Source: Sphingopyxis soli (GTDB lineage: Bacteria > Pseudomonadota > Alphaproteobacteria > Sphingomonadales > Sphingomonadaceae). From it: a stretch of DNA of 64,000 bases. The notes below the pieces were generated by a model, which did no database searches, was not told the origin of the DNA, and saw nothing but the letters and a program-made list of their open reading frames with translations. Positions 46,564 to 64,000 of this stretch are shown piece by piece. The stretch covers positions 1 through 64,000 of the forward strand of contig NZ_JAFMTR010000102.1 of assembly GCF_018682675.1 (NCBI RefSeq), written 5' to 3'. The position numbers and the translations under genes are program-made. How positions within the stretch are numbered: the first letter of the stretch is position 1; each line of letters starts with the position of its first letter.

Positions 46564-48999
46564 ATGACCGAGCCCGTCAAGGTCGCGATCATCGGATCGG
46601 GCCCCGCGGGTCTCAGCGCCGCGTCGCGCGCGGGCCAGCTCGGGCTCAGCCATGTCCTCCTCGAAAAGACCGATCACCTCTCCGACACCATCTTCAAATA
46701 TCAGAAGGGCAAGCGCGTCCTCGCGACGCCCGAACGCCTCGACCTCCGTTCCGACTGCCGCTTCGCGGAGGGCGCGCGCGAATATATTCTCGGCAATTGG
46801 GACGAGGATGCAGTCAACAACAAGGTGAATGTCGTCAAACATGCCGAAGTCACCGCGGTGACCGGGCAGAAGGGGGCGTTCGAGATCAAGACCGCCAAGG
46901 GCGACGTCTATCATGCCGAGACGATCGTGCTGGCGATCGGGACACAGGGCAATCCCAACCGGATGCGCTGCGAGGGGGCCGACCTGCCGCACATCATCTA
47001 TCAGGTCGACGATCCCGAGGATTTCAAGGACAAGCATATCACCGTCGTCGGATCGGGCGACGCGGGGATCGAGAATGCGCTGGGCGTTGCCGAGGAAGCG
47101 CTGGAAAACACCGTCACCATCCTCAACCGCTCAAAGGATTTCGCGCGCGCCAAGGCGAAGAATGTCTCGGACATGATGGAGGCGGGCGAGAACGGCTTGA
47201 TCTCGATCCGCACCGAGACTCAGCCGAAGCTGGTCGAACCCGGCTGGCTGACGCTCGAAACCCCGACCGGCGACGAGAAGATCCCGTGCGATGTCATCGT
47301 GGCGCGGCTGGGATCGGTCGCGCCGCGCGGCTTTGTCGAGTCGATGGGGATCGAATTTACCGGCCCCGACCGCGAAGCCTTTCCGAAGCTGTCGCCGACC
47401 TTCGAATCGACCGTGCCCGGCATCTTCGTCATCGGCGCGCTCGCGGGCTATCCGCTGATCAAGCATTGCATGAACCAGGGCTATGACGTCGTCGAGTTCA
47501 TCAACGGCAACAAGAACCTGACCCCCGCCGACGAAAAGGATCTGGCGGCGATCTTCGCGAACCTGCCGCAGAAGAAGTCGGTCAGCGAATGGCTCGACTA
47601 TCTGCGCGAGCGGGTCCGCATCTTCGCCGACGTGTCGCCGCTGCAGATGCGCGAATTCATGCTCGATTCCAAAGTGGCATATTATCGCAAGGGCGACGTC
47701 GTGTTCGAAAAGGGCGAGCCCGGATCGTCGCTGTTCGCGATCGCCGACGGCCATGCCGAGGTCGAGGTCGGTCCCGGTATCACCGTGCCGATCGAACAGG
47801 GATCGATTTTCGGCGAGGTCGGCCTGATTTCGGGCCGCAAGCGCGGCGCGACGATCCGCGCCGGCGCCGACAGCATCTTTGTCGAGGTGTCGCGCACGGC
47901 GGCGCTCAAGCTGATGGCGGCGGTGCCCGGTGCGAAGCGCGTGATCAACCGCATCTCGCTCGAGCGCCAGCTTCTGCAGATCTTCAAGGGCGGGCTGACG
48001 GTCGAGGATCTGGCGCCGGTCGTCGACGCCGCCGAGGTCGAGCGCGTGCCCGCGGGCAAGGTGGTGCTGACCGAGGGCGAGCAGGGCGACGATGTCTATG
48101 TCATCCGCTCGGGCTCGATGGTGGTCGAGAAGGATATCGGCGGCAAGCCGATCTTCCTGCGCTACCTTCCCGCCGGAAGCTTCTTCGGCGAGATGGGCGT
48201 GCTCAGCGGACAGCCCCGAAATGCAACGGTCAAGGCCGCGGTCGGCGCCGAACTGATCAAACTGACCGGCGAGAGCTTCCGCAGGATGCTCGCGGCGCGG
48301 CCGCAGGTGCGCGAGGCGACCGAGGCGGCGGTCGCCGAACGCGCGCAGATGAACAATTTCATCGAATCGCGCAAGGCGACCTATTCGAGCGCGGTCGATC
48401 TCTATTCGGACACCGCGAGCTTCATCATGAAGGAGGGGCTGGGCGAGGCGACCGACGCGCTGCTGATCGACGAAAATCTTTGCGTCGGCTGCGACAATTG
48501 CGAAAAGGCGTGCGCCGACAGCCACGAAGGCCTGTCGCGGCTGGATCGCGAGGCGGGCAAGACCTTCGCGCACCTGCATGTGCCGACGAGCTGCCGCCAC
48601 TGCGAACATCCGCACTGCATGGCCGACTGCCCGCCGAACGTCATCCATCGCGGGCCGGACGGCGAGGTGTTCATGGAGCCGGGCTGCATCGGCTGCGGCA
48701 ATTGCATGCGCAACTGCCCCTATGGCGTGATCCGCATGGAGGCGGCGCCGCCGCCGAAGCCCGGCCTGCTGCGCTGGCTGCTCACCGGCTTCGGCCCCGG
48801 CCCGGGCGAGCCGTCGCCCAAATGGACGAAGAAGCAATTGGGTGACGAGAAGCCCAAGAAGATCGCGGTCAAATGCGACATGTGCAAGGGGATTGCGGGC
48901 GGCCCGGCCTGCGTGCGCGCTTGCCCGACCGGCGCCGCGATCCGTGTCTCGCCCGAGGAATTCCTGTCGATCGCGCGCCTGCAGGAGGATGCAGGCTGA
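46564..48999 (+). CDS. FAD oxidoreductase-(cNMP-binding)2-ferredoxin fusion protein
   Basis: An 811-residue fusion. Residues 1-320 are a thioredoxin-reductase-like FAD/NAD(P)H domain with GSGPAG (residues 11-16) and a second Rossmann motif VVGSGDAG near residue 162; the redox CxxC of true thioredoxin reductases is missing, as in YpdA-type enzymes. Residues about 361-455 and 488-583 are two cyclic-nucleotide-binding domains (GSIFGEVGLISGRKRGAT, GSFFGEMGVLSGQPRNAT). Residues 635-790 are a HybA/DmsB-like domain with four cysteine sets: 640/643/646/650, 677/680/685/689, 708/711/714/718 and 771/774/783/787. It would pass electrons from NAD(P)H to Fe-S clusters under control of a nucleotide ligand (inference). 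The next gene starts inside its stop codon. Confidence 0.88.
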   Translation: MTEPVKVAIIGSGPAGLSAASRAGQLGLSHVLLEKTDHLSDTIFKYQKGKRVLATPERLDLRSDCRFAEGAREYILGNWDEDAVNNKVNVVKHAEVTAVTGQKGAFEIKTAKGDVYHAETIVLAIGTQGNPNRMRCEGADLPHIIYQVDDPEDFKDKHITVVGSGDAGIENALGVAEEALENTVTILNRSKDFARAKAKNVSDMMEAGENGLISIRTETQPKLVEPGWLTLETPTGDEKIPCDVIVARLGSVAPRGFVESMGIEFTGPDREAFPKLSPTFESTVPGIFVIGALAGYPLIKHCMNQGYDVVEFINGNKNLTPADEKDLAAIFANLPQKKSVSEWLDYLRERVRIFADVSPLQMREFMLDSKVAYYRKGDVVFEKGEPGSSLFAIADGHAEVEVGPGITVPIEQGSIFGEVGLISGRKRGATIRAGADSIFVEVSRTAALKLMAAVPGAKRVINRISLERQLLQIFKGGLTVEDLAPVVDAAEVERVPAGKVVLTEGEQGDDVYVIRSGSMVVEKDIGGKPIFLRYLPAGSFFGEMGVLSGQPRNATVKAAVGAELIKLTGESFRRMLAARPQVREATEAAVAERAQMNNFIESRKATYSSAVDLYSDTASFIMKEGLGEATDALLIDENLCVGCDNCEKACADSHEGLSRLDREAGKTFAHLHVPTSCRHCEHPHCMADCPPNVIHRGPDGEVFMEPGCIGCGNCMRNCPYGVIRMEAAPPPKPGLLRWLLTGFGPGPGEPSPKWTKKQLGDEKPKKIAVKCDMCKGIAGGPACVRACPTGAAIRVSPEEFLSIARLQEDAG

Positions 49000-49880
49000 T
49001 GGCGTCGCTTTTCCAGCGCCGCCGCAGCAAGGCGACCCAGACCGAGCGTGTCCGCGAGCGGCGGCACGAGGGGTTCCTGCGCTATGCCAATTTCCGCTGG
49101 GCGAAGATTTCGGGCGGGCTCTGCCTGCTCATCATCGTCTCCTATGCGCTGATCGACGTCACGCCGCGGCCCAATGGCGGGAGCTGGTACGGCTATACGC
49201 TCGGGACGATCGGCGCGGGGCTGATCCTGTGGCTGACCGCGCTCGGCTATCGCAAGCGCAAGATGACCAGCGATCACTGGTCTTTGAAGGCCTGGACCTC
49301 GGCGCATGTCTATCTCGGGCTCAGCCTGATCGTTATCGGGACGTGGCACACCGGCTTCCAGCTCGGCTGGAATGTCCACACGCTGGCGTGGGTGCTGATG
49401 ATGCTCGTCATCCTGTCGGGGCTCTATGGCGTCGTCGTCTATTCGACCTTGCCCGCCGCGCTGTCGAACAACCGCGACGAGATGACGCAGATGCAGATGC
49501 TCGAGGCGATCCGCGCCTTCGACCGCCAGCTTCACGCCGCCGCACAGCCGCTGACGCCGCAGGATACCGCCCCGGTGCTCGCCGCGCTCGACGAGGATCC
49601 CTTCGCGGGCGGCATCATGGCGCGGCTGTCGGGCCGCTATCCCGATTGCGCGACCGCCGCGGCGCTGCGGGCGCTCGGGGCGTCGCGGAGCAGCGATGCC
49701 GGCGCGCGCGAGAAGGTGGTCGGGCTGCTCTCGCAAAAGGAGGTCGCGCTCGCGCGGCTGCGCCAGCATCTCCGCATCCGCGCGCTGCTCGAAATCTGGC
49801 TCTACGTGCATGTGCCGCTGACCTTCGCGCTGATCGCGGCGCTGTCGGCGCACATCGTCAGCGTCTTCTTCTACTGGTGA
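48999..49880 (+). CDS. Cytochrome-b-like membrane protein
   Basis: A 293-residue integral membrane protein with about five transmembrane helices (residues 36-53, 66-84, 101-119, 128-149 and 265-292). Histidines suited for haem ligation sit at His103 and His117 (helix 3), His127, and His271 and His285 (helix 5), so a di-haem b-type cytochrome is likely. A soluble loop of about 110 residues lies between helices 4 and 5. ATG 48999 overlaps the stop of the 811-residue fusion protein (TGATG), and the FHA-cytochrome gene follows after 10 nt. In context it should carry electrons across the membrane between the Fe-S protein and the multihaem cytochrome, perhaps through quinone. It is not a standard NrfD or Rieske-type partner. 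Confidence 0.75.
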   Translation: MASLFQRRRSKATQTERVRERRHEGFLRYANFRWAKISGGLCLLIIVSYALIDVTPRPNGGSWYGYTLGTIGAGLILWLTALGYRKRKMTSDHWSLKAWTSAHVYLGLSLIVIGTWHTGFQLGWNVHTLAWVLMMLVILSGLYGVVVYSTLPAALSNNRDEMTQMQMLEAIRAFDRQLHAAAQPLTPQDTAPVLAALDEDPFAGGIMARLSGRYPDCATAAALRALGASRSSDAGAREKVVGLLSQKEVALARLRQHLRIRALLEIWLYVHVPLTFALIAALSAHIVSVFFYW

Positions 49881-49890
49881 GGCGGGGACG

Positions 49891-51828
49891 ATGAGCTTCA
49901 TCCTGCGCCGGATCTCGACGACCAAGACGGGCAAGCAGATCGTCCGCGACCAACCGTTGCCGGGCGATGCCATCACTCTCGGCCGCGAGGGCAGCAATGT
50001 CATCCACATCGCCGATCTGGCAGTGAACCCGCATCATGCGACGATCACCAGCGCCGACGGCCGCCATGTTCGCGTGCAGGCGAGCGAAGGGCTGGGGTTC
50101 GACTTCAACGGCCGCACGGTCGACGCCGCCGACATCGACAGCGCCGCGGGCGCCGAGCTGCGCTTCGGCGGACACCGGCTGACGATCGCGCGCGAGGATG
50201 AGAAGATCATCCTGCTCGTCGAGCGCATCGACGAACTGTCGCAATCGTCGAAGGATGTCGACGAGGCAAAGGCCTTCTCGCTTGCGGGCGTGATGCCCGG
50301 CAAGCGCATGGGCGCGTGGGTGTTCGGCGTCCTTGTTCTGCTGGCTTTCCTGATCGGCCCGATCTGGGCATGGAGCAGCTTCAGGAATGTCGACGAGCGC
50401 CCGCAGGGCTATCATGCCGACCAGGCTTGGCTCTCGGGGCCGCTGTCGAGCGCGCACAAGAGCCTTAAGAACGACTGCCAGTCGTGCCACGTCGAGCCCT
50501 TCGTCGCGGTGACCGACAAGGCGTGCGTCGGCTGCCACACCGGCGAGCACAAGGCGATGAGCATGGCGCATGCCAATGCGCCGACCGCGATGCTGCTGGC
50601 GGCGCGCCACCCGCCGGGGGTTGGCGAGCGTATCCTTGCGGGCTTTGCGAAAACCTTCAACAAGCCGCAGGGGCGCTGTGTCGGTTGCCATACCGAACAT
50701 GAAGGGGCGGGGCCGATGCCCGCGACGCCGCAGAAATTCTGCGCCGATTGCCACGACGGCATGTCGGCGCGGCTGATCGATGCGGGCTTCAAGCCGACGG
50801 TCGCCGATGCCGCCGATTTCGGCACCATCCATCCCGAATTCCGCCCGCTCGTGCGGCCGTCGCCGGGCGCGAAGCCGATGCGCGCGATGCCGGGCAAGGG
50901 CGCGCTCGTCGATTATGACGGCCTCAAATTCCCGCACGACCTGCATTTGCAGGCGACCGGCGGCGTCGCGCGGATGGCGGCGAGTTTCCGCGGCCGGTAC
51001 GACTTCGGCAACAAGCTCGAATGCGAAAATTGCCACCGCGTCGAATCCGACGGCGTACGGGTCAAGCCGGTCGAGATGGAGCGCGACTGTGCGATGTGCC
51101 ATAGCCTCGCGTTCGAGACCGTCGGGGGCGTGACGCGCACGCTGCGTCACGGCGAGCCCGATCAGGTCGTCGCCGACCTGATGGCCTATTATCGCTCGAC
51201 ACCGCCGACGCGGCCGCTCCAGCTTGGCGGGATGGAGCGCCGACGCCCCGGAAACTATGCCGAAGGGCAGGTCTATAACATCTATTTCCGCGAGGTTGCG
51301 GTGCGTCCGAACCGCGCCGAGGATGCGGTGCGGGCGGTCTTTTCGAAGGGTGGGGCCTGTTACGACTGCCACACCATCTTCGCGCCGCAGGCCGGGACCG
51401 GCTGGCGCGTGATGGCGGTCGACCAGACGCCGCGTTTCCTGTCCAAGGGCTGGTTCGACCATGATGCGCACAAGGAGACCGATTGCGCCGACTGCCATAC
51501 GGCGGCGCGGGGATCGAAGGCGTCGACCGACTTGCTCATACCCGGCCTGCGCCAGTGCCGCGACTGCCATGTCGGCGAGGGCGGCGCGCGGCTGGTGAAG
51601 GTCGAAACGGCGACCGAATCGCCTTGCGCGATGTGCCACGAATATCACTCGGACGGCGGCAAACCGTGGATGCCGGCGCGTCAGCGGAAGGTAAACAGCG
51701 CGGCAATCACAAATAAACCTCTTCGCGCTACCTATGGTGTGAGCATGGTCACAGGCTCGGCGGAGCGGGGGCTCTATGATGTGACGTGGCGCACACCCGC
51801 CCTGCACGGGGCAAGGCGGGGCGGCTAG
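49891..51828 (+). CDS. FHA-domain / transmembrane / decahaem cytochrome c fusion
   Basis: A 645-residue protein joining parts rarely seen together. Residues about 25-95 are an FHA phosphothreonine-binding domain (GREGSNVIHIADLAVNPHHA). Residues 141-163 are a transmembrane helix. The exported C-terminal part carries ten CxxCH haem sites: CQSCH, CVGCH, CVGCH, CADCH, CENCH, CAMCH, CYDCH, CADCH, CRDCH and CAMCH. With the FHA domain in the cytoplasm and the haems in the periplasm, it could couple phosphoprotein signalling to periplasmic electron transfer (inference). It is third in the operon after the cNMP/ferredoxin fusion and the cytochrome-b-like gene. The last roughly 45 residues have no haem site and look variable. 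Confidence 0.88.
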   Translation: MSFILRRISTTKTGKQIVRDQPLPGDAITLGREGSNVIHIADLAVNPHHATITSADGRHVRVQASEGLGFDFNGRTVDAADIDSAAGAELRFGGHRLTIAREDEKIILLVERIDELSQSSKDVDEAKAFSLAGVMPGKRMGAWVFGVLVLLAFLIGPIWAWSSFRNVDERPQGYHADQAWLSGPLSSAHKSLKNDCQSCHVEPFVAVTDKACVGCHTGEHKAMSMAHANAPTAMLLAARHPPGVGERILAGFAKTFNKPQGRCVGCHTEHEGAGPMPATPQKFCADCHDGMSARLIDAGFKPTVADAADFGTIHPEFRPLVRPSPGAKPMRAMPGKGALVDYDGLKFPHDLHLQATGGVARMAASFRGRYDFGNKLECENCHRVESDGVRVKPVEMERDCAMCHSLAFETVGGVTRTLRHGEPDQVVADLMAYYRSTPPTRPLQLGGMERRRPGNYAEGQVYNIYFREVAVRPNRAEDAVRAVFSKGGACYDCHTIFAPQAGTGWRVMAVDQTPRFLSKGWFDHDAHKETDCADCHTAARGSKASTDLLIPGLRQCRDCHVGEGGARLVKVETATESPCAMCHEYHSDGGKPWMPARQRKVNSAAITNKPLRATYGVSMVTGSAERGLYDVTWRTPALHGARRGG

Positions 51829-51868
51829 GATTGGGTCCGGGGACGACCGGTGGGAGCAGGGGGCGGAT

Positions 51869-52717
51869 ATGCTGATCGCGCAGATCACCGATATCCATAT
51901 CGGGTTCGATCCCGACAATCCGGCGGAATATAACCGCAAGCGGCTCGACGACGTGCTCGACGTGCTGATCGAGGGGCCGAATCGTCCCGACCTGTTGCTG
52001 GCGACGGGCGACATCACCGACCGCGGCGATTCCGACAGCTACCGCCGGCTCGCCACCGCCTTTTCGCGCTGCCCGTTCCCGGTCTGGCCGAGCGTCGGCA
52101 ATCATGACCTGCGCGACAATTTTCATGCCCAGTTCCCCGGTTTCGGCGACGGCAACGGCTTCGTCCAATATGTGATCGACCTGCCCGAACTGCGCCTCGT
52201 CACCGTCGACACGCTCGAGGAAGGGCGCCACGGCGGCGCCTTCTGCGAAGCGCGTGCGGCGTGGCTCGATGCCGAACTGGCGAAGGATCGCGGCAAGCCG
52301 ACCTATATCGTCATGCACCACCCGCCGGTCGAAAGCGGGATCGAGTGGATGAACACGCACCCTGACGAGCCGTGGGTCGCGGTCTTCACCGAAGTTGTCC
52401 AGCGCCACCCGCAGGTGCGCGGGCTGATTTGCGGCCATCTCCACCGCAGCGTCACGGTGGCGTGGGCGGGGCGCACCGTCGCGATCTGTTCGTCGACCGC
52501 GCCGCAAGTGTCGCTCGATCTCCGGCCGATCGACGAGAATCATCCCGACGACCGCCCGATGATCGTCGCCGAGGATCCCGCCTATGCGCTGCATCGCTGG
52601 AACGGGCGCGAACTCGTCAGTTTCTACGACCATGCCGGGGCGCACACGATGCTCGCCAAATATGACGAGCGGCTGCAGCCGCTGGTGCGCGAGCTCAAGG
52701 CCGAACGGCCGGGTTAG
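51869..52717 (+). CDS. CpdA-like cyclic nucleotide phosphodiesterase (metallophosphoesterase)
   Basis: A 282-residue class III phosphodiesterase. The five metal-binding motifs are all present: ITDIHIG, ATGDITDRGD, SVGNHDLR, VMHHPPV and ICGHLHRS. The pattern and length match CpdA, which hydrolyses 3',5'-cAMP. It starts 40 nt after the FHA-cytochrome gene, on the same strand, and so probably belongs to the operon whose first protein has two cyclic-nucleotide-binding domains. A role in resetting the local signal is likely (inference). Other substrates of this superfamily, such as glycerophosphodiesters, remain possible. It is convergent with the HAD gene, with a 4-nt overlap. Confidence 0.88.
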   Translation: MLIAQITDIHIGFDPDNPAEYNRKRLDDVLDVLIEGPNRPDLLLATGDITDRGDSDSYRRLATAFSRCPFPVWPSVGNHDLRDNFHAQFPGFGDGNGFVQYVIDLPELRLVTVDTLEEGRHGGAFCEARAAWLDAELAKDRGKPTYIVMHHPPVESGIEWMNTHPDEPWVAVFTEVVQRHPQVRGLICGHLHRSVTVAWAGRTVAICSSTAPQVSLDLRPIDENHPDDRPMIVAEDPAYALHRWNGRELVSFYDHAGAHTMLAKYDERLQPLVRELKAERPG

Positions 52718-53548: not shown

Positions 53549-54493
53549 TCAGTAGCCCAGCGCCAGGTCGACGCGCGGTTCGACGGCCTCGCCCCGTTTC
53601 CAGCGATCGAGATTCTCGAGGAAGCGCTGCGCCGAGCGCATGAACATCTTGTCCTGTGCGCGGCCCGACAGATGCATGGTGATATGGGCGTTGTCGAGGC
53701 TCCACAGCGGATCGCTGTCGGGCAAAGGTTCGGGCGTGGTGACGTCGAGGAAGGCGGCGGCGATCTGCTGCGTGTCGAGCGCCGCGACCAGCGCGTCCTG
53801 ATCGACCACGCTGCCGCGTGCGATGTTGACGAGGGTCGCGGTGGGCTTCATCGCCGCAAGCTCGGCGCTGCCGATCATGCCATCGGTCTCCGGCGTGGCG
53901 GGGACGGCGAGAATGACCCAGTCGAAATCGCCGAGCCGCGCGCGCCACTGGTCCGGCCCCAGCGTGTTCGGGCCGGGCGAGCGGCGCACGACGGTCACGT
54001 CGACGGCAAAGGCTTTCAAGCGCTCCTCGACCAGTTTGCCGATCGCGCCATAGCCGAGCAGCAGCGCTTTCGACCCGAACAGTTCGACCTTGCCGGGCGA
54101 GTCCATCAGCCATTCGCGCCGGTCCTGCGCACGGACGACCTCGCGATATCCCTTGGCGACCGTCAGCATCCCCATGACGACATATTCGGCGATGGTGATG
54201 GCGTTGATCCCGGCGCCGTTGGTGACCACGGTGCCGCGTTCGCGGAGCAGGTCGAGCGGCATCCCGTCGACCCCGGCATAAATCGAGTTCAGCCATTTGA
54301 GGTTCGTCGCGGCGCCGATGACCGCGGCCATGTCCTTCTTGTCGTACATGTCGAACCAGCCGATTTCGGCCTCGGGCGCGAGGCTCATCGCTTCGTCTTT
54401 CGACATGAAGAAGCGCGGCTCGACCCAGTCGGGGAGGTGGCTTTCGACGAGGGGGCGGATGAGGCCGGACAGGACGGTGACGGTTTTGGTCAT
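53549..54493 (-). CDS. D-2-hydroxyacid dehydrogenase family protein
   Basis: A 314-residue NAD(P)-dependent dehydrogenase of the D-isomer-specific 2-hydroxyacid family, reducing a 2-keto acid. The Rossmann motif is LLLGYGAIGKLVEERL. The catalytic Arg lies in NIARGSVVDQDALV, Glu in DVTTPEPLPDSDPLW, and His in NAHITMHLSG. Its ATG overlaps the stop codon of the DUF559 gene (ATGA), although that coupling was probably created by insertion of the repeat element. The native promoter must lie within or beyond the element. Confidence 0.93.
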   Translation of the reverse strand: MTKTVTVLSGLIRPLVESHLPDWVEPRFFMSKDEAMSLAPEAEIGWFDMYDKKDMAAVIGAATNLKWLNSIYAGVDGMPLDLLRERGTVVTNGAGINAITIAEYVVMGMLTVAKGYREVVRAQDRREWLMDSPGKVELFGSKALLLGYGAIGKLVEERLKAFAVDVTVVRRSPGPNTLGPDQWRARLGDFDWVILAVPATPETDGMIGSAELAAMKPTATLVNIARGSVVDQDALVAALDTQQIAAAFLDVTTPEPLPDSDPLWSLDNAHITMHLSGRAQDKMFMRSAQRFLENLDRWKRGEAVEPRVDLALGY

Positions 54494-54936
54494 AAACGAT
54501 CCTTCTGATCCTCCCCATCGACTTGCGATGGGGAGGTGGCATCGCGAAGCGATGACGGAGGGGCTTTGCCGAATGCCTTCAGACGGCTTTCGACGATGTC
54601 GACAACAGATTGAGCGACTGTTTCGGCGCTGTCCAGCGCGTCGCGCGCGCTGATGCGGAGCGCGTCGATGCGATTTGCACAAAGCCATGCGTCGCGTTGT
54701 TCGTCGTGCGAGGGATTGTCGCCCATATCGTGCGCAATGCCGTCAATTTCGACCGCGAGATTGGCGCGGGCGCAAAAGAAATCGAGGATGTAGGGGCCGG
54801 CGGGATGTTGCTTGCGGAATTTATGGCCGTTCGGCGAGGTGCGGAGGAGCTGCCAAAGCATTGCTTCCGGAAGTGTCAGAATATGCCGCAAGCGTCTGGC
54901 GCGGCGCGCCGATCTTGCCGGTTTATCAGGACGCAT
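54490..54936 (-). CDS. DUF559 (Vsr-like) nuclease-fold protein inside a repeat element
   Basis: A 148-residue DUF559 protein, related to very-short-patch-repair endonucleases. The PD-(D/E)XK-like core is visible as LPEAMLWQLLR, FRKQHPAGPYILDFFC (Asp52) and LAVEIDGIAHD (Glu63, Asp65). The gene lies between two perfect 27-bp inverted repeats (54510-54536, 54976-55002). Its last 20 or so residues (KAPPSSLRDATSPSQVDGE) are a translation of the left repeat, reading out of the element to a stop overlapping the dehydrogenase start. This placement suggests that the gene is part of the mobile unit. DUF559 genes are often annotated near such repeats in alphaproteobacteria (recollection, not tested). 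Start: ATG 54936, the first good one before the domain. Confidence 0.85.
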   Translation of the reverse strand: MRPDKPARSARRARRLRHILTLPEAMLWQLLRTSPNGHKFRKQHPAGPYILDFFCARANLAVEIDGIAHDMGDNPSHDEQRDAWLCANRIDALRISARDALDSAETVAQSVVDIVESRLKAFGKAPPSSLRDATSPSQVDGEDQKDRL

Positions 54937-56613: not shown

Positions 56614-59600
56614 TTACGGCTGCTGGGTATCGGTCGTCGGCGTCCACAGATCGTCGTTGCCCGCGCCCGTCACCGGATCGTCGAGCAGCGGCTCGCCCGA
56701 GAGCGGGTCGAGATCGCGCATCGTGATGAGCGCGGTCGGCAGGCTGGTGCCGTCGCCCTCATCCTCGCTGCCGTCGCCGATCTCGTCCTCGATCACGTCC
56801 TGGACCGGGAAATTATTGTCGAAATCGATGCGGACGGTCGTGCAGGATGCGACGTTCGAGATGAAGCAGCCGTTCAGCGTCGATTCGGGATCGTAGCTGC
56901 CCGTCGCGCTATTCGCGGGCGCGCCCGCTACCGTCAGGAACTGGAGCGTGTCGAGGCCGGTGACCTGTCCGCTCGCCCCGAGCTGCACGCCGTTGAGCAC
57001 GATCCGCGACGAAGGCCCTTCGGTCAGGACGTCGAGCCCGCCCGCGCCGAAGGTCAGGCCGCGGCGCAGGCCGAAGTCGGTGCCCGTACCGCTGTTCTGG
57101 ACATAGACGCCGCCGATCACGTTGAAACGGATTCCACGCGCAAAGAGCGCCCCTTCGTCGATCGTGACGCCGTCGTTCTGGCCGAGACGGGTGTTGATCG
57201 CCGCCATCGAGCTTGCGTTGGCGACGTCGGCGATCGCTGCGGTCGTTGCGACGATGATATCCTCCGATGCCATGTTCAGCTGTCCGCCCGGCGCGTTGTT
57301 GGCGCCCAGCAACCGGACGGTGCCCTGGCCGAGGATGACTTCCAGCGCTTCGTCGGCGAACAGGTTGAGCGCGTTCGTATCCGAAAGCCCGGTCAGTTGG
57401 ACGTTGCCTGTAACCCGCATCTTGCCCGGCGTGCGGATCGTCAGCGACCCGCCCGCACCAAGGTTGGACCCCGCGGCGCCGCCGGCGAGCGTGAAGCTGT
57501 CCACGATCACGTCGGGCGGCGCGCTGCTCCCGACCGATTGCTGGCTTACCGCCCCGACTTCGGGCGCAAAAATGACGATATCGGAACCGAACAGGCGCGT
57601 CAGTTCCGCGGCGTCGATATGATAGCCATTGCGGGTGCCGGTGCCGCCGACGAAGGTTTGCCGCTGGTCGTCGGTGTTCATGACCGACAGCGCTTCGGTC
57701 GTGCCGGCCGTGCCGACGCGCGCCGCGGTGTCTATCGTGATGTCGCTCGACCCCAGCGAAATGCTGCGGCCGGTTACGATGCCGCTGATCAGCAGCGATC
57801 CGCGGGCGGTGGCTGTGAGGTCGTCGGTGACCGAGACGCTGTTCAGCGTGACGAACCCGCCGGTTGCCTCGATCGAAGCGCTGTCGGCGGTGAGCGCGTC
57901 GACGCCCACCCGTTCGCCGGTGCTGCGAAGGGTGGCGCGGCCCGCGATGCTGCCGTTCTGGACGAAGAGGTCGCCGCCGGAGACCACCGATGCGTCGCCG
58001 ACATCGGTGACCAGATTGGCGAAGATCATGTCGCCGCCGCCCGCGACGTTGATCGTGTCGCCCTGCGCATCAATCTCTCCCGCCGACACCAGCGCGCCGA
58101 TGTCGATCGCGCCGCCGGTGGCGAGCAGCGTCGTTGTGCCGATGCTATCCAGCCGGCGGACCGAGAGGTCTTCCGCAGCCGAAATGACGGTATTCCCGCC
58201 GCTGGCCGTGCCGATGAGGTCGACGAATGTTCCGGCGTCCAGATTGACGTCGCCCTGCGCGAGCAGGCTGCCTCCCTCGATCGCGTTCGCCGATGCAAGG
58301 CTGATCGTTCCATCGGCTGCCAGGGTCGGTACGGGCGTCCCGTTGGTTTCGCTCAATTCGGCGATCCCGATGCTGTCGGCATTGATCGCGATGTCGCGGC
58401 CCGCATTGACCACGCCATCGGCGCTCGCCGCGCCCGCTGCGTCGATCAGCACGTCGTCGAAGGCATCGAGCCCGGTCACACTGGTGTCGCCGCCCTGGGT
58501 GCGAATGTTGCTGCCGCCGGCCGTGACGCCGAGACCGAGCGTCGTCGCATCGCTGAGGCGGATGGTTCCGCTGGCGAGCGCGATGATGTCGTCACCCGCC
58601 GACAGGGTCGTCGCGTCGATACCGCTGCCCGACGACAGGACGATATCCGATCCGTCGGTCGCCGAGCTGCCTTCGCCCACCGTGATCGTGAAGCCGCCAA
58701 AACCCGAGGAGGCGGGGGGCGTATAGTTCAGGAATGCGTTATCGGGGCCGGTGCCCGTCGTGCGGACGTTGACGGCAGTGATGGCGCCGGGCGCGCGAAC
58801 GTTGACGTCGTCGCCCGCGCTGACATCGTTCAGCGACGCGGTCGCGCCCGCGACGACGAGGACGTCTTCGCCCGCACTGGCGGCCCCGACGCTGGCGGAT
58901 CCGCCCGCATTGATGCCGAGCATCCGCGCCGCCGCCCCGCCGGTCAGCGTGACATCGCCCGCCGCGTCGATATAGACGTTGCCGTTCGTCCCGATCCCGT
59001 TCGGGTCGATATAGGTCCCCGCCGCGCTCGCCGATACGGTGACGTCGCCATTCGCATTCAGAAGAACGTCGCCGCCCGCTGCGTAATTGCCGGTGAGGTC
59101 GCCGTCTGCGAAGATCGAGATGGTGCCGTCGACATCGGCCCGGTTGACCGCCACATTGCCGTCCGTCCCGAAGGCGAAGAAGGAACCGGTGCCGGTGACG
59201 TCGCCGCCGAGCGCGATGCTGTTGCCGAACAGTGTGATCGTGTCGCCCGCGTCGATCGAGCCGCCGCGAATTCCCTCGGCGCCCGCCACGGCGCCGATCG
59301 CGGTGAGGTCGACCGTCTCGCCCGCATCGATGTTGGTAAAGACGATCGACTCGCCCGTTACCGAGACGAACCCGCCGGCGCTCGAATTGCCGAGGTCGAC
59401 CGCGCCCGGCGAGGTGATCGAAATGTCGCCGCCGGTGATGATCGAATTGAGCCCGGTGCGGAAACTGCCTGCGCTCGCGGTGAAATCATCGTCGGCTTCG
59501 GCATGTTCGACGCTGGTCGCGCCGGTGCTGGACATGACGACCGTGCCGCCTTCCACATGGTCGACGCCGATGCGCCCGGTGGTCCCCAGCGCCGTCAGCG

Positions 59601-62600
59601 TGACGACGCCGCTTGCAGCCAGCAGCGAACCCGTTGCGCCGCGGATCGTGGTGCCCGCCGTGATCGACAGATCGCCGCCCGCGAACAGCGTCCGTTCCTC
59701 GGACGCACCGCGCATGTCGTGACGGATATCGACCTGGTCTGCGGCATTGATCTGGAACAGGTCGCCGGCGCGCACCTGTCCGCCGCCTTGCGCATAGGCG
59801 CCGAACGACCCGCCGGTCTGGACGGTCAGGTCGTCCGCAACCTCGATCGACCCGCCATTCGCCGCGAAGAAGACGCCATAGGCCGACAGATCGGTGTCGT
59901 TGTTGGTCGGCTGCGCGAAGCCCGCCGCATTCGCATCGAGGCTGGCGAGCGAGATGCTGCTCGAACTGCGCAGCTCGATCCGGCCCGCGATGAAGCCGTT
60001 GGCCGCGATAGTGGTGTCGCCGAGCGTGATCTGGCCCGCGCCGGCCTCGGTCGATTCCGACCGGAAGACAACACGGCCGCCGAGATCGACGAAGCTGGTG
60101 CAGCACGAACCGGTGCCGCCCGAGCCGACCCCGCCGTCGCCGCCATTGCCCGAGATGCCGGAGACCGAGATGTCGACCGGCGCGCCATCCGACGTGATCG
60201 TGCCGCCGCGCGCGAGCAGCGTTACCGTGCCGCCGGTGCCTGCTCCGCCGAACCCGCCGTCCCCGCCGGTCAGGCCGAGAAAGGTGTCGTCCGCCGTGAA
60301 CAGCATCCCGTCGGGGCCGGGTTGCCTGATCGTGTTCGGATTGTCGGCGCCGCGGCCGCCGTCGCCACCGTTGCCGACGCTGCTCAGCGTCCCGCCGCCG
60401 GAGCGGCCGATACCGAGGCCGACCGTGCCGCCATCGGTCGCGACGATACTGATCTCGCCGCCGATGCCTTCGCCTCCGTCGCCGCCCCTGCCGGCGACTT
60501 CGGGGGTTGAGAAAAAGTCGGTGAAGGCCGATCCGCCGGTGCCGCCGGTCGCGACGGAGACGAAATTGGACTGCGAGACGACGACATTGCCGTTCGGTCC
60601 GCGCGCCTCGACCATCATGGTGCCGCCGCGCGCCGAGCCGCCGTTGCCCCCCGCACCGTCGTAGCCGATACCGCCGTTGCCGCCGGTTGCCGAGCCATCG
60701 AGCGCGATCGACAGTTCGCCGGCGTCGAAATCGTCGACCAGCACCTGCGCGACGCCGCCCGACGCATTGCCGCCGCCGCCGCCGCTGGTTCCCGATCCGC
60801 CGACGCCCCCCGACGCCGTTGAATAGGTGGTGATGCTTTCGGTGATGTTGACCAGCGTCGGACCGAGGCCGATCGTCGCGAAACCGCCGAAGGCATCGCC
60901 GCCGCGGCCGCCGGTGCCGACGCTTGTCGAGGGGCCGGAACTGCTCGACAGGAAGGCGCTGCCGCCTGCGCCGCCGAAACCGCTGGCGTCGACGGTCACG
61001 GCGTCGCTGGCAAGCTCGCCGCCGTTCAGGCGGATCGTCGCGTTGCCGCCGCTGCCGAAGCCGGCGTTTCCGCCGTTACCCGGCACACTGCCGACCGTGC
61101 GATAATCGCCGCCGTCGCCGCCCCTGCCGCTTGCATAGGCGGCAAGGACGGTGGTGTTGACAATTGCGGTGTCGGAGATGGTGATACCGGCTTCGCCCCC
61201 CTGGCCGTTGCCGCCGTCTCCCGCCGCCGTCGGGTTCAGGAAGTCGAAATCGTCGCCGTCGAAACCGCGCCCGCCTTGGCCCGATGCCGACAGGCTGACG
61301 TCCGAAGCGGTGAAGGTGCCGCCGCTGATCTCCAAGGATGTGTCGCCGCCGATCCCGTCGCCCGACACGCCCCCGCCCGCGGGTCCGGCGAAGTCGCCGC
61401 CAATGCCGTCGGCGTTGAGGGTCACGTCGCCGAGCGCCGTATCGCCGCCGATCTGCGTGAAGGTGACGGCGCCGCCACGGCCGGTGCTGTTACTGCCGCT
61501 GGCGCCGCCATAGCCGTTTGCGGTGAGGAAGAGGCCGCCGCCGGTCAGGCTGCCGCCGCTGACCTGGACGTCGATCGTGCCGCCCTGGCCGTCGCCCGAC
61601 GTGTCGCGCGGCAGGCCGGGGGAGGCTTCGACGTCGACCGAGGTTCGGCCGTCGGCGTCCGCGCTGAGGCCGCTGCCGAGGTCGATGCCATGCGCAGGAT
61701 CGAAGCCGGTGCCGATCTGGATGAGCCCGCCGATCCCGACCACGCCGGTGGCGTTGGGGTCGGTCGCGCCGCCCGAAACCCCGCTGGCGGAGAAAACGGG
61801 ATTCGAGAATTGCATGTCAGCTTCGTTGGCGAAGATTGTGATGCTGCCGCCCGTCGCCGAGCTGCCCGCGGTGCTGACGCCCGTCTGCGCGCTGACGTTG
61901 AGCTGGTCGACGCCGTCGTTCGTCGCCCCGATGAGGCCGCCGTTGAGTGCGGTCATCGTGATGAAACCGCCCTGCGCCGGCCCATTCGTGCCGCTGACGT
62001 TGACCACCGACGCCCTTGCGTCGAGGCTGTAGTTGCTGGCGGAGATGGTGCCGCCGAGATCGGCGAGAAGATCGATCGTACCACCCGTGCCGCTGCCGGC
62101 GACAACCGGGACGGCGCTGCTCTCGCTGCCGCCGAACGCCGTGACGTCGATCGTGTCGCCGACGGAAATCGTGCTGTTCTCGATCGCCGACAGATTGACG
62201 CCGCCGCCGGTCCCGCTGCCGACATTCTCGCTGGAGACGGCGCGCCCGCTGACGTTGATCGAAAGCCCCGTGCTGACCGCGAGGGTCGAGACGTTGCTCG
62301 TCCGGAGCAAGGCGGTCCCGCCCTGCGCGTCGCCCGAGCGCGCGGTGTTGCCCCCGCTGCTGGCGCTCGACGCGCCGCCGCTGTTGGCGCTGGCGTCGAT
62401 GCTGAGCTGGCTCAGCGCAACCGTGCCGCCGCCATTGGCTTCGACCAGCACGTCGCCGCCGACGGCGTTGCCGCCGGCCGAACCGTCGCCATTGGCGCCG
62501 CCGCCCGTCCCCGACGCATTCACCGAAACCGCGCCGACGCTGACCGAGGAGCCGCTATCGGTCCCGAAGGTGAGCAGCGCCGCGTTCCCGACGCCATCGC

Positions 62601-64000
62601 CGCCATTGGCCGACAGCACCGTTCCATAGACCGGATCGGAAATCGAGCCGCCGCCGACACCCGCGGCATTGACCGTCGTCTGCGGCGCGGTGAAGGTGGT
62701 GCCCGCACCCGTCACCTGGATCCGCGCATCGCCGCCGGTGCCGTTGCCCGATTGGTCGAGCCCGACGCGGCCCCGACCGGCGGCGCTTGCGACGACCCCG
62801 ACGGTCGCCGTGACCTGCGCACCGCCGCTGACGCTGATCGCCGCATTGCCCCCGATGCCGTCGCCGCCATTGTCGGCGACGATCGCATTGCCGGTGACGG
62901 CGTCGAGGGCGAGAGCGCCGCCCAAACCATCGGCGCTGGCGGAGATGGTGTCGCCGATCAGCAGGCTGCCGGTCCCCGAAACATTGATCGCCGCCGTCCC
63001 GCCGGCGCCGGTGCCGCCTTCGCCGCCATCGTCGAACCCGCCGAAGCCGTCGGCGGCAACCGTGAGGTCCAGCCCGGCGCCCATCTGGCCGCCATTCAGG
63101 ACATTGAGCGTCGCGGTGCCGCCCTGGCCGAATCCTGTCGTGCCGTCCGGGGCGCCGGTTGCCAGCAGGCTGATGTTTCCTAGCGCCACCAGGCCACCGC
63201 CGTCGACGGTGATCGTGGCGCTTCCGGGCCCGGCGGCGGTGCCGTTCGCCTGCACCAGCAAGTCGCCGGTGACGATGCTCTGCCGTCCCGCGTTGATGGT
63301 CAGCGTCGCGCTGTTCTCGCCGACGAACGTGCCGTTGCCTTGGATCGAGAAACGGCCCTGCCATGCCGGCGGGGGAACGGTGAAGGGGCCGCCTGTCGGC
63401 ACCACGCCGAGCGGCTGGCCGAGGAAGTCGTTGCTGGCGTGCGCGGTGACGTCGCTCAGGAAGACGATGTCATTGACCGAGATATTGGCCGCGGTGTTGT
63501 TGGCCGGCGTCTCGTTCATTGCGCCCGCAGTGACATTATAGCCCGCGGACAGGACGATCGAACCGTTCGAGACCGTCGCCGACGATGCGTCGTTATAGCC
63601 GACCTGTCCCGACACCAGCATCGTGACGGCGTCATTTTTGGGAATCGCCACCATATAGATGCGGTGCGCGAGCGCGCCCGTCTGTTCGGGGCCGGTCGTG
63701 ATGCCGCCGTGGGTGATGACATTGCCGCCGTTCGCGCCGGTGGTCACGTTGATGTCGAACAGGCCGTTGGCGGCGTTGATCGTGATATCCGCGACTTCCG
63801 CCGCGACATAGGCGGCCGATCCGTTGACGTTGACGATGCCGTTCTGGACGACGCGCGGCGCGACGAGCGCGACATAGCTGCCGCCCGCGACGCCGTTGTC
63901 GGCGCCGATGAAGGCGTTGTTCGCCACCGTCACCGTCGCATTGCTGTTCGGCGCGCCGCGGAAGCGGATCGTGCCGCCGGGGGCGAGGCCACCGGTCGTG
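56614..64000 (-). CDS. Giant filamentous-haemagglutinin-like exoprotein, 5' end outside window
   Basis: An open frame of more than 2460 codons, still open at the right edge, so the N-terminus (and any TPS secretion domain) is outside. The visible start resembles the region after a haemagglutination-activity domain (VTVANNAFIGADNGVAGG, then INAANGLFDINV). Hundreds of Gly/Asn/Thr-rich beta-helix repeats follow, such as GGDGGVGSGG and GGNATIRLNGG. The C-terminus is acidic (DVIEDEIGDGSEDEGDG) and ends TDTQQP, with no autotransporter barrel, so two-partner secretion by an FhaC-type protein encoded elsewhere is likely. It probably acts as a surface adhesin. The long open frames on the opposite strand are shadows of the repetitive GC-rich sequence. 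Confidence 0.85.
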   Translation of the reverse strand, partial: TTGGLAPGGTIRFRGAPNSNATVTVANNAFIGADNGVAGGSYVALVAPRVVQNGIVNVNGSAAYVAAEVADITINAANGLFDINVTTGANGGNVITHGGITTGPEQTGALAHRIYMVAIPKNDAVTMLVSGQVGYNDASSATVSNGSIVLSAGYNVTAGAMNETPANNTAANISVNDIVFLSDVTAHASNDFLGQPLGVVPTGGPFTVPPPAWQGRFSIQGNGTFVGENSATLTINAGRQSIVTGDLLVQANGTAAGPGSATITVDGGGLVALGNISLLATGAPDGTTGFGQGGTATLNVLNGGQMGAGLDLTVAADGFGGFDDGGEGGTGAGGTAAINVSGTGSLLIGDTISASADGLGGALALDAVTGNAIVADNGGDGIGGNAAISVSGGAQVTATVGVVASAAGRGRVGLDQSGNGTGGDARIQVTGAGTTFTAPQTTVNAAGVGGGSISDPVYGTVLSANGGDGVGNAALLTFGTDSGSSVSVGAVSVNASGTGGGANGDGSAGGNAVGGDVLVEANGGGTVALSQLSIDASANSGGASSASSGGNTARSGDAQGGTALLRTSNVSTLAVSTGLSINVSGRAVSSENVGSGTGGGVNLSAIENSTISVGDTIDVTAFGGSESSAVPVVAGSGTGGTIDLLADLGGTISASNYSLDARASVVNVSGTNGPAQGGFITMTALNGGLIGATNDGVDQLNVSAQTGVSTAGSSATGGSITIFANEADMQFSNPVFSASGVSGGATDPNATGVVGIGGLIQIGTGFDPAHGIDLGSGLSADADGRTSVDVEASPGLPRDTSGDGQGGTIDVQVSGGSLTGGGLFLTANGYGGASGSNSTGRGGAVTFTQIGGDTALGDVTLNADGIGGDFAGPAGGGVSGDGIGGDTSLEISGGTFTASDVSLSASGQGGRGFDGDDFDFLNPTAAGDGGNGQGGEAGITISDTAIVNTTVLAAYASGRGGDGGDYRTVGSVPGNGGNAGFGSGGNATIRLNGGELASDAVTVDASGFGGAGGSAFLSSSSGPSTSVGTGGRGGDAFGGFATIGLGPTLVNITESITTYSTASGGVGGSGTSGGGGGNASGGVAQVLVDDFDAGELSIALDGSATGGNGGIGYDGAGGNGGSARGGTMMVEARGPNGNVVVSQSNFVSVATGGTGGSAFTDFFSTPEVAGRGGDGGEGIGGEISIVATDGGTVGLGIGRSGGGTLSSVGNGGDGGRGADNPNTIRQPGPDGMLFTADDTFLGLTGGDGGFGGAGTGGTVTLLARGGTITSDGAPVDISVSGISGNGGDGGVGSGGTGSCCTSFVDLGGRVVFRSESTEAGAGQITLGDTTIAANGFIAGRIELRSSSSISLASLDANAAGFAQPTNNDTDLSAYGVFFAANGGSIEVADDLTVQTGGSFGAYAQGGGQVRAGDLFQINAADQVDIRHDMRGASEERTLFAGGDLSITAGTTIRGATGSLLAASGVVTLTALGTTGRIGVDHVEGGTVVMSSTGATSVEHAEADDDFTASAGSFRTGLNSIITGGDISITSPGAVDLGNSSAGGFVSVTGESIVFTNIDAGETVDLTAIGAVAGAEGIRGGSIDAGDTITLFGNSIALGGDVTGTGSFFAFGTDGNVAVNRADVDGTISIFADGDLTGNYAAGGDVLLNANGDVTVSASAAGTYIDPNGIGTNGNVYIDAAGDVTLTGGAAARMLGINAGGSASVGAASAGEDVLVVAGATASLNDVSAGDDVNVRAPGAITAVNVRTTGTGPDNAFLNYTPPASSGFGGFTITVGEGSSATDGSDIVLSSGSGIDATTLSAGDDIIALASGTIRLSDATTLGLGVTAGGSNIRTQGGDTSVTGLDAFDDVLIDAAGAASADGVVNAGRDIAINADSIGIAELSETNGTPVPTLAADGTISLASANAIEGGSLLAQGDVNLDAGTFVDLIGTASGGNTVISAAEDLSVRRLDSIGTTTLLATGGAIDIGALVSAGEIDAQGDTINVAGGGDMIFANLVTDVGDASVVSGGDLFVQNGSIAGRATLRSTGERVGVDALTADSASIEATGGFVTLNSVSVTDDLTATARGSLLISGIVTGRSISLGSSDITIDTAARVGTAGTTEALSVMNTDDQRQTFVGGTGTRNGYHIDAAELTRLFGSDIVIFAPEVGAVSQQSVGSSAPPDVIVDSFTLAGGAAGSNLGAGGSLTIRTPGKMRVTGNVQLTGLSDTNALNLFADEALEVILGQGTVRLLGANNAPGGQLNMASEDIIVATTAAIADVANASSMAAINTRLGQNDGVTIDEGALFARGIRFNVIGGVYVQNSGTGTDFGLRRGLTFGAGGLDVLTEGPSSRIVLNGVQLGASGQVTGLDTLQFLTVAGAPANSATGSYDPESTLNGCFISNVASCTTVRIDFDNNFPVQDVIEDEIGDGSEDEGDGTSLPTALITMRDLDPLSGEPLLDDPVTGAGNDDLWTPTTDTQQP

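Follow-up and report, generated by a model that had tools for sequence, protein, structure and literature searches.

Electron conduits of the MtrCAB/CymA type, and other Pcc conduits, share a general scheme: an inner-membrane input protein, a periplasmic multihaem cytochrome, and an outer porin with a large multihaem cytochrome. The CymA-like input is fed by quinol, and the porin is a barrel of about 26 strands filled with cytochrome. All the Gram-negative outward conduits known to us start from quinol. The present study concerns a gene set found on a 64,000-nucleotide (nt) stretch of Sphingopyxis soli DNA (family Sphingomonadaceae; contig NZ_JAFMTR010000102.1 of assembly GCF_018682675.1), which is called the window below. 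In an original prediction made from the sequence alone, four consecutive plus-strand genes at positions 46564 to 52717 had been singled out as a possible undescribed electron-transfer operon controlled by cyclic nucleotides. Our analysis indicates that genes 1 to 3 are the conserved core and that they share their distribution with a second set of genes encoding a porin and further multihaem cytochromes. On balance, we think it probable that the two modules make up an undescribed pathway from NAD(P)H to the outer envelope, of which genes 1 to 3 would be the inner, input half, with gating by cyclic nucleotide monophosphate (cNMP) and with a multihaem oxidoreductase at its end.

Comparison with described conduits

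The gene set follows the Mtr scheme in having an inner-membrane input, a periplasmic multihaem cytochrome and an outer porin with a large multihaem cytochrome. It differs in that the input would be an NAD(P)H/FAD/Fe-S protein with cNMP domains rather than a quinol oxidase, in that the periplasmic cytochrome (gene 3) is anchored in the membrane and carries an FHA-like domain, and in that the barrel is closest to AlgE. Geobacter extHIJKLMNOPQS, implicated with selenite and tellurite, offers a second comparison: the sections of PMC5877670 consulted describe a porin, several multihaem cytochromes and an inner-membrane b cytochrome with an Fe-S protein, all features in which the present set resembles Ext, together with the Rieske/bc-like ExtO/ExtP; those sections do not mention any NAD(P)H, cNMP or FHA protein for Ext.

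Both Mtr- and Ext-type identities were rejected, as the cut-offs of the NCBIfam profiles were missed. The MtrA/DmsE-type profile TIGR03508 (cut-off 192.2 bits) gave 20.1 bits with gene 3 of the window, 24.8 with the tetrahaem cytochrome of locus L081 and 31.3 with a pentahaem protein of locus L165. The OmcA/MtrC profile TIGR03507 had no match (E <= 0.01) in three large cytochromes and scored 17.2 bits against a cut-off of 209.3 with the L081 tetrahaem protein. ExtM is the nearest NCBIfam family of the large cytochrome, the best stretch covering about 50 residues, with scores of 64.8 (source genome), 79.7 (L089) and 56.7 bits (L087) against a cut-off of 800; ExtN and ExtO (cut-off 200) gave at most 27.6 bits.

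No description of the gene set turned up in searches of an open-access library, in keeping with the earlier statement that no named system of this composition was known. The main text of a 2024 survey of multihaem clusters (Garber et al., PMC11475568) does not contain the terms 'Sphingo', 'Alphaproteobacteria', 'LVIVD', 'NADH', 'propeller' or 'Lysobacter', and its supplementary cluster lists may hold the set. The components belong to known families. What is undescribed, as far as searched, is their architecture, together with the terminal cytochrome and an NAD(P)H input that has cNMP domains.

Genes 1 to 3 are conserved as a unit

The number, strand, order, coordinates and spacing of the four genes are as originally described: gene 1 (46564-48999) and gene 2 (48999-49880) overlap by 1 nt in the sequence TGATG, a gap of 10 nt separates gene 2 from gene 3 (49891-51828), and one of 40 nt separates gene 3 from gene 4 (51869-52717). 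The lengths of the open reading frames, their conservation and their synteny establish that this arrangement is not due to chance. The source genome holds a single full copy of gene 1.

Forty loci were fetched around gene 3 homologues, 31 inside the family and nine outside. In 38 of the 40, genes 1, 2 and 3 stand on one strand in numerical order, which bears out the co-occurrence on which the original prediction could be checked; the exceptions are L084, without gene 1, and L088, which has only a related cytochrome. The simple gene caller behind the gene models of the fetched loci truncated 10 of the 39 gene 1 copies at the N-terminus and made some tetrahaem and large cytochromes too short. 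The aligned sets comprise 39 sequences for gene 1, 40 for gene 2 and 41 for gene 3.

Matches to gene 3 were present in 33 of 36 genomes of the same genus and in 121 of 298 genomes of the family. No match was seen in 24 genomes representing other families of the order; at phylum level, 24 of 397 genomes had one (18 of these at E <= 1e-15). When named genomes were scanned with the gene 1 alignment, at least 405 similar stretches were obtained at E <= 1e-3, the best 80 of which were kept. These 80 loci include Tahibacter, Dokdonella, other Lysobacterales, Solimonas, Nevskia, Alcanivorax and Cognaticolwellia, as well as metagenome-assembled genomes (MAGs) of SAR116, OM182, Rhodospirillaceae and Burkholderiales; a few MAGs among them appear to bear the wrong name (Klebsiella, Bordetella, Rhizobium, Mycobacteriaceae). 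Genes 2 and 3 directly follow gene 1 in 59 of the 69 loci with at least 3 kb of downstream sequence. Several betaproteobacterial MAGs have another order, with gene 1 placed after a tetrahaem gene and gene 3 upstream. In S. herbicidovorans the set carries generic annotations ('cyclic nucleotide-binding domain-containing protein', 'hypothetical protein', 'cytochrome c3 family protein', 'metallophosphoesterase', 'multiheme c-type cytochrome').

Predicted cofactor domains of genes 1 to 3

Gene 1 (811 residues) has the domain composition first assigned to it, each domain scoring over the Pfam cut-offs: Pyr_redox_3/Pyr_redox_2 at residues ~5-306, tandem cNMP-binding domains at ~360-600 (PF00027, 112.8 bits over two stretches) and Fer4 families within ~634-801, making up a four-cluster ferredoxin domain. 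All 16 cluster cysteines are invariant in the 39 aligned sequences. The FAD/NAD(P)H domain resembles YpdA and thioredoxin-reductase-like flavoproteins: among the matches listed, YpdA is the best curated family (128.3 bits), and the solved chains 7a7b and 7a76 are matched. Gene 1 differs from YpdA in scoring under the cut-off of that family (339.9) and in being fused to cNMP-binding and ferredoxin domains. Residue R189, in the second dinucleotide fold, is invariant in the 39 sequences and would fit the use of NADPH. No quinone-site family appeared for any of the four genes among the matches listed in the curated profile searches (the best 25 in the case of gene 1). Genes 1 and 2 occur naturally fused as one open frame of 1118 codons in genome G383 (L086:4850-8203).

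Gene 2 (293 residues) is predicted to be a dihaem b cytochrome that spans the membrane and has a helical insertion. The earlier description of a cytochrome-b-like protein gains from five invariant histidines and draws little from Pfam, where the match to cytochrome b561 (PF01292) is weak (E 0.0055; 16.9 bits against a gathering cut-off of 30.1). The five histidines form two H-x13-H pairs (H103/H117 and H271/H285) plus H127; they are unchanged in all 40 relatives aligned and in all 41 sequences of a second set (the window and 40 named-genome loci). The H-x13-H spacing is a signature of dihaem b proteins. By its two pairs gene 2 resembles the NADPH-oxidase/ferric-reductase and bc-type dihaem b proteins, which suggests two b haems stacked across the membrane. 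In contrast to these proteins, its electrons would come from a separate four-cluster ferredoxin domain and its acceptor would be a decahaem protein; no Pfam ferric-reductase match is listed for it. A confident AlphaFold2 model of gene 2 (pLDDT 89.7, pTM 0.80) aligns with cytochrome b561 (4o7g) in VIA-align at Z 8.1, with a root-mean-square deviation of 3.1 over 135 residues, values that lie inside the helical-bundle background. Ferric-reductase folds are not among the rows listed for the model by Foldseek and VIA-align, which excludes nothing.

Gene 3 (645 residues) has ten CxxCH motifs, a Cytochrome_C7 match over the Pfam cut-off and a single transmembrane segment at ~140-160 (hydropathy maximum at 140). 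The ten motifs are kept in 40 to 41 of the 41 sequences and nine further histidines in at least 39; most haems are therefore probably bis-His electron carriers. Of the FHA-transmembrane-decahaem architecture initially proposed, the haem motifs and the membrane segment stand, and the FHA part is carried by motif more than by profile: PF00498 scores 14.9 bits against a cut-off of 20.7, the FHA 'GR' is present in all 39 copies (of 41) with letters at that place, and His49 in 37 of the 39. The position usually occupied by Ser in the FHA motif is variable, which makes phosphopeptide binding by this domain doubtful. A sequence search for solved relatives of gene 3 returned two weak partial matches (E 0.019 and 0.19).

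A second module shares the distribution of genes 1 to 3

Clustering of the recurring neighbours, which are partly annotated, brought out three more proteins that recur: in 17 loci an HbpS-like one, in 18 a putative porin of 547-785 residues, and in 17 a large multihaem protein containing LVIVD repeats. In the source genome, the genes for a tetrahaem cytochrome, the HbpS-like protein, the porin and the large decahaem cytochrome lie at ~9930-19647 of contig C111 (locus L124), another contig than that of the window (C15), with a CcmH/CycH-like TPR gene and a gdhA-like gene upstream. The same four genes are found in order on one strand in 19 of 20 loci examined, the remaining one (L133) being cut by the contig end; the gene caller shortened the tetrahaem gene in three of the 20.

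The two modules coincide almost perfectly in the family. Matches to the large cytochrome occur in 120 of the 298 genomes, 119 of which are among the 121 with gene 3, and gene 1 at E <= 1e-100 is found in exactly these 119. The odd cases are weak partial hits that were set aside (gene 3 in G194 and G241, E ~7e-4; large cytochrome in G233, 2e-4); with them, the counts for both, gene 3 only, large cytochrome only and neither are 119, 2, 1 and 176. The source genome has the two modules on separate contigs, so close linkage does not explain their shared distribution there. They are likewise not adjacent in G013, G025 and G029 of the same genus, and both are absent from G015, G083, G132, G133 and G156, though other members of the genera of these genomes have both.

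Outside the family the two modules mostly form one gene cluster. A full-length large cytochrome is present in 13 of the 397 phylum genomes, all 13 with gene 3, and, among the 80 gene 1 loci kept, 45 of the 52 with at least 9.5 kb downstream encode the HbpS-like protein, the porin and the large cytochrome (the other seven are L146, L164, L165, L181, L195, L205 and L218). Genes 1 to 3 also adjoin an alternative outer set, made of a pentahaem protein, tetrahaem proteins and a second putative porin (L165:3739-9987 and L181:15009-19441; also L180, L186 and L083, judged by gene order). The second putative porin of L165 has no Pfam match. A single input module thus seems to go with different outer modules. 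Gene 1 and the large cytochrome occur together on each of twelve Sphingobium replicons (0.88-1.28 Mb). The 404-kb plasmid NZ_CP076395.1 of Sphingopyxis indica carries a large cytochrome at 81% identity and no gene 1 match, so that the outer module may travel separately. The original prediction thus holds for genes 1 to 3 as a core, and the four genes are probably only part of the system.

An AlphaFold2 model of the Tahibacter harae porin (L144), built with 38 relatives, shows a beta barrel (pLDDT 74.6, pTM 0.74) with 19 strands of at least seven residues. Its closest solved match is the alginate exporter AlgE (Foldseek E 4.8e-17, 13% identity, TM-scores 0.47 and 0.66); MtrB is not among the best 50 Foldseek rows, which excludes nothing. 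The large cytochrome keeps its ten CxxCH motifs in 30 to 32 of 32 copies, has many further invariant residues and ends in an LVIVD-type region. Seven copies from several classes share a mean column identity of 64%. Between the source genome and G646, identity is 55% for the large cytochrome, 47% for gene 1 and 25% for gene 3 (the last by local tblastn). This better conservation suggests an enzyme more than a generic wire. A sequence-profile search found no relative of the large cytochrome among solved chains at E <= 0.1.

Two smaller genes recur around the outer module. One encodes a protein of ~90-160 residues between gene 3 and the HbpS-like gene (L168:14578-14985 and 12 other loci; family N3), without a Pfam match in the L168 copy. 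The other is a response-regulator-like gene (family F4) in four loci of the source genus (L124:18752-19471, L125, L126 and L127).

Probable cyclic-nucleotide control of gene 1

The phosphate-binding cassette of the CNB superfamily, Gly-Glu...Arg, is present in each of the two cNMP domains of gene 1 and is invariant in all 39 sequences (G417/E418/R427 and G542/E543/R552). By the cassette rules, cAMP would be a more likely ligand than cGMP.

Class III nucleotidyl cyclase-like proteins, sought with two blastp queries, are encoded in 11 of the 80 named gene 1 loci and in 1 of the 40 gene 3 loci. From 91 PF00211 matches in the 79.4 Mb of 20 chosen named genomes, 1.6 would be expected in the 1.43 Mb of loci as against the 11 found (Poisson 1e-6, uncorrected for relatedness and for the use of different detectors, blastp for the count and PF00211 for the control); the control is biased upward, because seven of the 20 chosen genomes have a cyclase in their locus. 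In four loci (L188, L192, L204 and L210) gene 1 is immediately preceded, on its own strand, by a cyclase gene and two further genes. A CHASE2 domain together with the cyclase was confirmed in L160, L188, L192 and L204, and the two further genes of L192 and L204 encode TPR and FecR domains. L141 has a cyclase-like gene directly upstream of a gene 4 homologue, beside the outer module, and L080 has one after its gene 4 homologue. Enrichment of cyclases near gene 1 and the intact cassettes support cyclic-nucleotide control, which had been proposed from the outset and is likely a feature of gene 1.

Gene 4 and other genes nearby

Gene 4 (282 residues) is a calcineurin-like homologue of cyclic-nucleotide phosphodiesterases. 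It matches Metallophos over the Pfam cut-off, and the window copy has all the metal motifs (D-x-H, GDxxD, GNH and GHxH). Its designation as CpdA-like is no better than SpdA-like would be: of the best curated families, SpdA scores higher (138.8 bits, cut-off 400) than CpdA (81.5 bits, cut-off 225), and neither equivalog cut-off is reached. CpdA was therefore rejected as a name. In 28 of the 31 family loci gene 4 is the next gene after gene 3; the other three are L113, L114 and L118, the last cut by a contig end. It follows gene 3 directly in none of the nine loci outside the family, of which L080 has a homologue ~5 kb downstream, and no gene is labelled gene 4 in the 80 named-genome loci. On these counts it was rejected as a core part, and we regard it as an accessory specific to the family.

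On the opposite strand upstream of gene 1, 28 of the 31 family loci have a TPR gene, which is the immediate neighbour in 24 and comes with other ccm/dsbE genes in four; the one that was scanned, from L101, matches TPR_CcmH_CycH. A search for FNR- or CRP-like palindromes within 300 nt upstream of gene 1 gave one relaxed match in the 111 usable of 121 loci. Elsewhere in the window, a minus-strand reading frame of at least 2461 codons (56614-63999) runs past the window end; it is repeat-like and gives the impression of a large adhesin or autotransporter passenger. A short minus-strand frame (54490-54861) resembles a DUF559-type endonuclease-like protein.

Proposed pathway and alternatives

In the pathway that we favour, gene 1 would oxidise NAD(P)H at its FAD in the cytoplasm, its four [4Fe-4S] clusters would relay the electrons to gene 2, and the two b haems of gene 2 would take them over the inner membrane to the ten c haems of gene 3 in the periplasm. 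This much agrees with the chain originally proposed, and the domains and cofactor ligands support each of the carriers. From gene 3, electrons would continue, probably through the tetrahaem cytochrome, to the large decahaem LVIVD protein encoded with the AlgE-like porin and the HbpS-like protein; this would be the oxidoreductase at the end of the chain, located in the outer envelope and probably specific for a substrate. Binding of a cyclic nucleotide to the tandem CNB domains would gate gene 1, its local level being set by gene 4 in the family and by class III cyclases in other lineages. Judging by its gene content, the pathway would take its electrons from NAD(P)H and be independent of quinone. 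Domains, cofactor ligands, synteny and co-occurrence are the observations from which we infer the direction of flow, NAD(P)H specificity, gating, the order of electron transfer and the location of the terminal protein. The latter may face the outside, or it may be periplasmic and act on a solute entering by the AlgE-like porin; because the large cytochrome is so highly conserved, we lean towards a substrate-specific reductase. A more general formulation is that of a quinone-independent, cNMP-gated trans-envelope reductase of aerobic Pseudomonadota, in which the NAD(P)H inner module can be plugged into at least two outer modules, each with a new multihaem terminal enzyme. We put this forward tentatively, the case for it falling slightly short of the case against.

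Several observations weigh against the favoured pathway. The genomes and loci compared are related, so that the counts are not independent. Six loci (L182, L194, L198, L199, L202 and L214) have gene 3 upstream, at the locus edge, with no gene 2 seen, and four (L170, L205, L217 and L218) show no sign of either gene, with contig or flank ends cutting some of these loci. Among the 18 phylum genomes with gene 3 at E <= 1e-15, five lack a full-length large cytochrome, so the input module also occurs without it: in G491 the contig ends just after the porin, G722 has an alternative outer set, G688 has a locus without gene 1, and the other two are G351 and G383. Binding of FAD, NAD(P)H and cNMP by gene 1 is assigned from motifs. 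As to gene 2, its model had no Foldseek match at E <= 0.001, and the top VIA-align rows are unrelated helical bundles (TorS and McpS, Z up to 11.7), so that its fold is not securely matched.

A stricter variant of the favoured pathway would make the porin and cytochromes an Mtr-like outer-membrane conduit delivering electrons to an insoluble or large extracellular oxidant. The presence of a porin and multihaem cytochromes in one cluster speaks for such a surface conduit, as do the lipoprotein-like signal with which the HbpS-like protein of the source genome begins (read from its sequence) and the TPR gene preceding gene 1 in L192 and L204, whose match to the surface-lipoprotein-assembly family SlipAM is over the Pfam cut-off in the former and under it in the latter. 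However, the solved protein closest to the barrel exports a polymer and is not a cytochrome-filled porin, and the unusual conservation of the large cytochrome is that of an enzyme; we consider the variant unlikely, though well worth keeping in view.

Flow might instead run inward, the outer module oxidising an external donor and the electrons reducing NAD(P)+. All the redox parts are reversible in principle and aerobic heterotrophs could gain reductant in this way. Yet movement from periplasm to cytoplasm opposes both the membrane potential and the low potential of NAD(P)H, by established bioenergetics, and no energy-coupling subunit was recognised among the recurring neighbours, partly annotated as these are. 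This direction seems to us improbable.

We give still less credence to a redox-signalling complex, in which the CNB and FHA domains would lead to protein phosphorylation or a change in cNMP level. Two signalling-type domains in one operon, the nearby cyclases and the recurrence of F4 in four same-genus outer-module loci fit such a role. Against it, 24 c-type haem sites are conserved together with four Fe-S clusters and a porin, and the position usually held by Ser in FHA domains is variable. That the four genes are complete in themselves and the outer module an unrelated passenger with the same distribution is hardly credible: the modules are indeed apart in the source genome and three of its relatives, and five phylum genomes have gene 3 without the full-length large cytochrome, but the modules occupy the same 119 family genomes, are missing together from five others and form one cluster in other classes.

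Significance

The favoured pathway, from NAD(P)H to the outer envelope, appears to start from a cytoplasmic donor and to have a cyclic-nucleotide switch built in. The system is present in 119 of 298 family genomes and in named Tahibacter, Dokdonella, Solimonas, Alcanivorax and Sphingobium, none of which is, to our knowledge, a model electroactive bacterium. Erythromonas ursincola is an aerobic phototroph and a sphingomonad. The available sections of PMC5488091 report that an NADH-dependent, membrane-associated tellurite reductase was purified from this organism and that the mass-spectrometry match named is GroEL; its gene thus seems, from these sections, to be unassigned. Tellurite reduction as a function of the present pathway is speculation. 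The large cytochrome may be a new enzyme, and the gene set lets one ask whether ordinary aerobes dump cytoplasmic reductant outside the cytoplasm.

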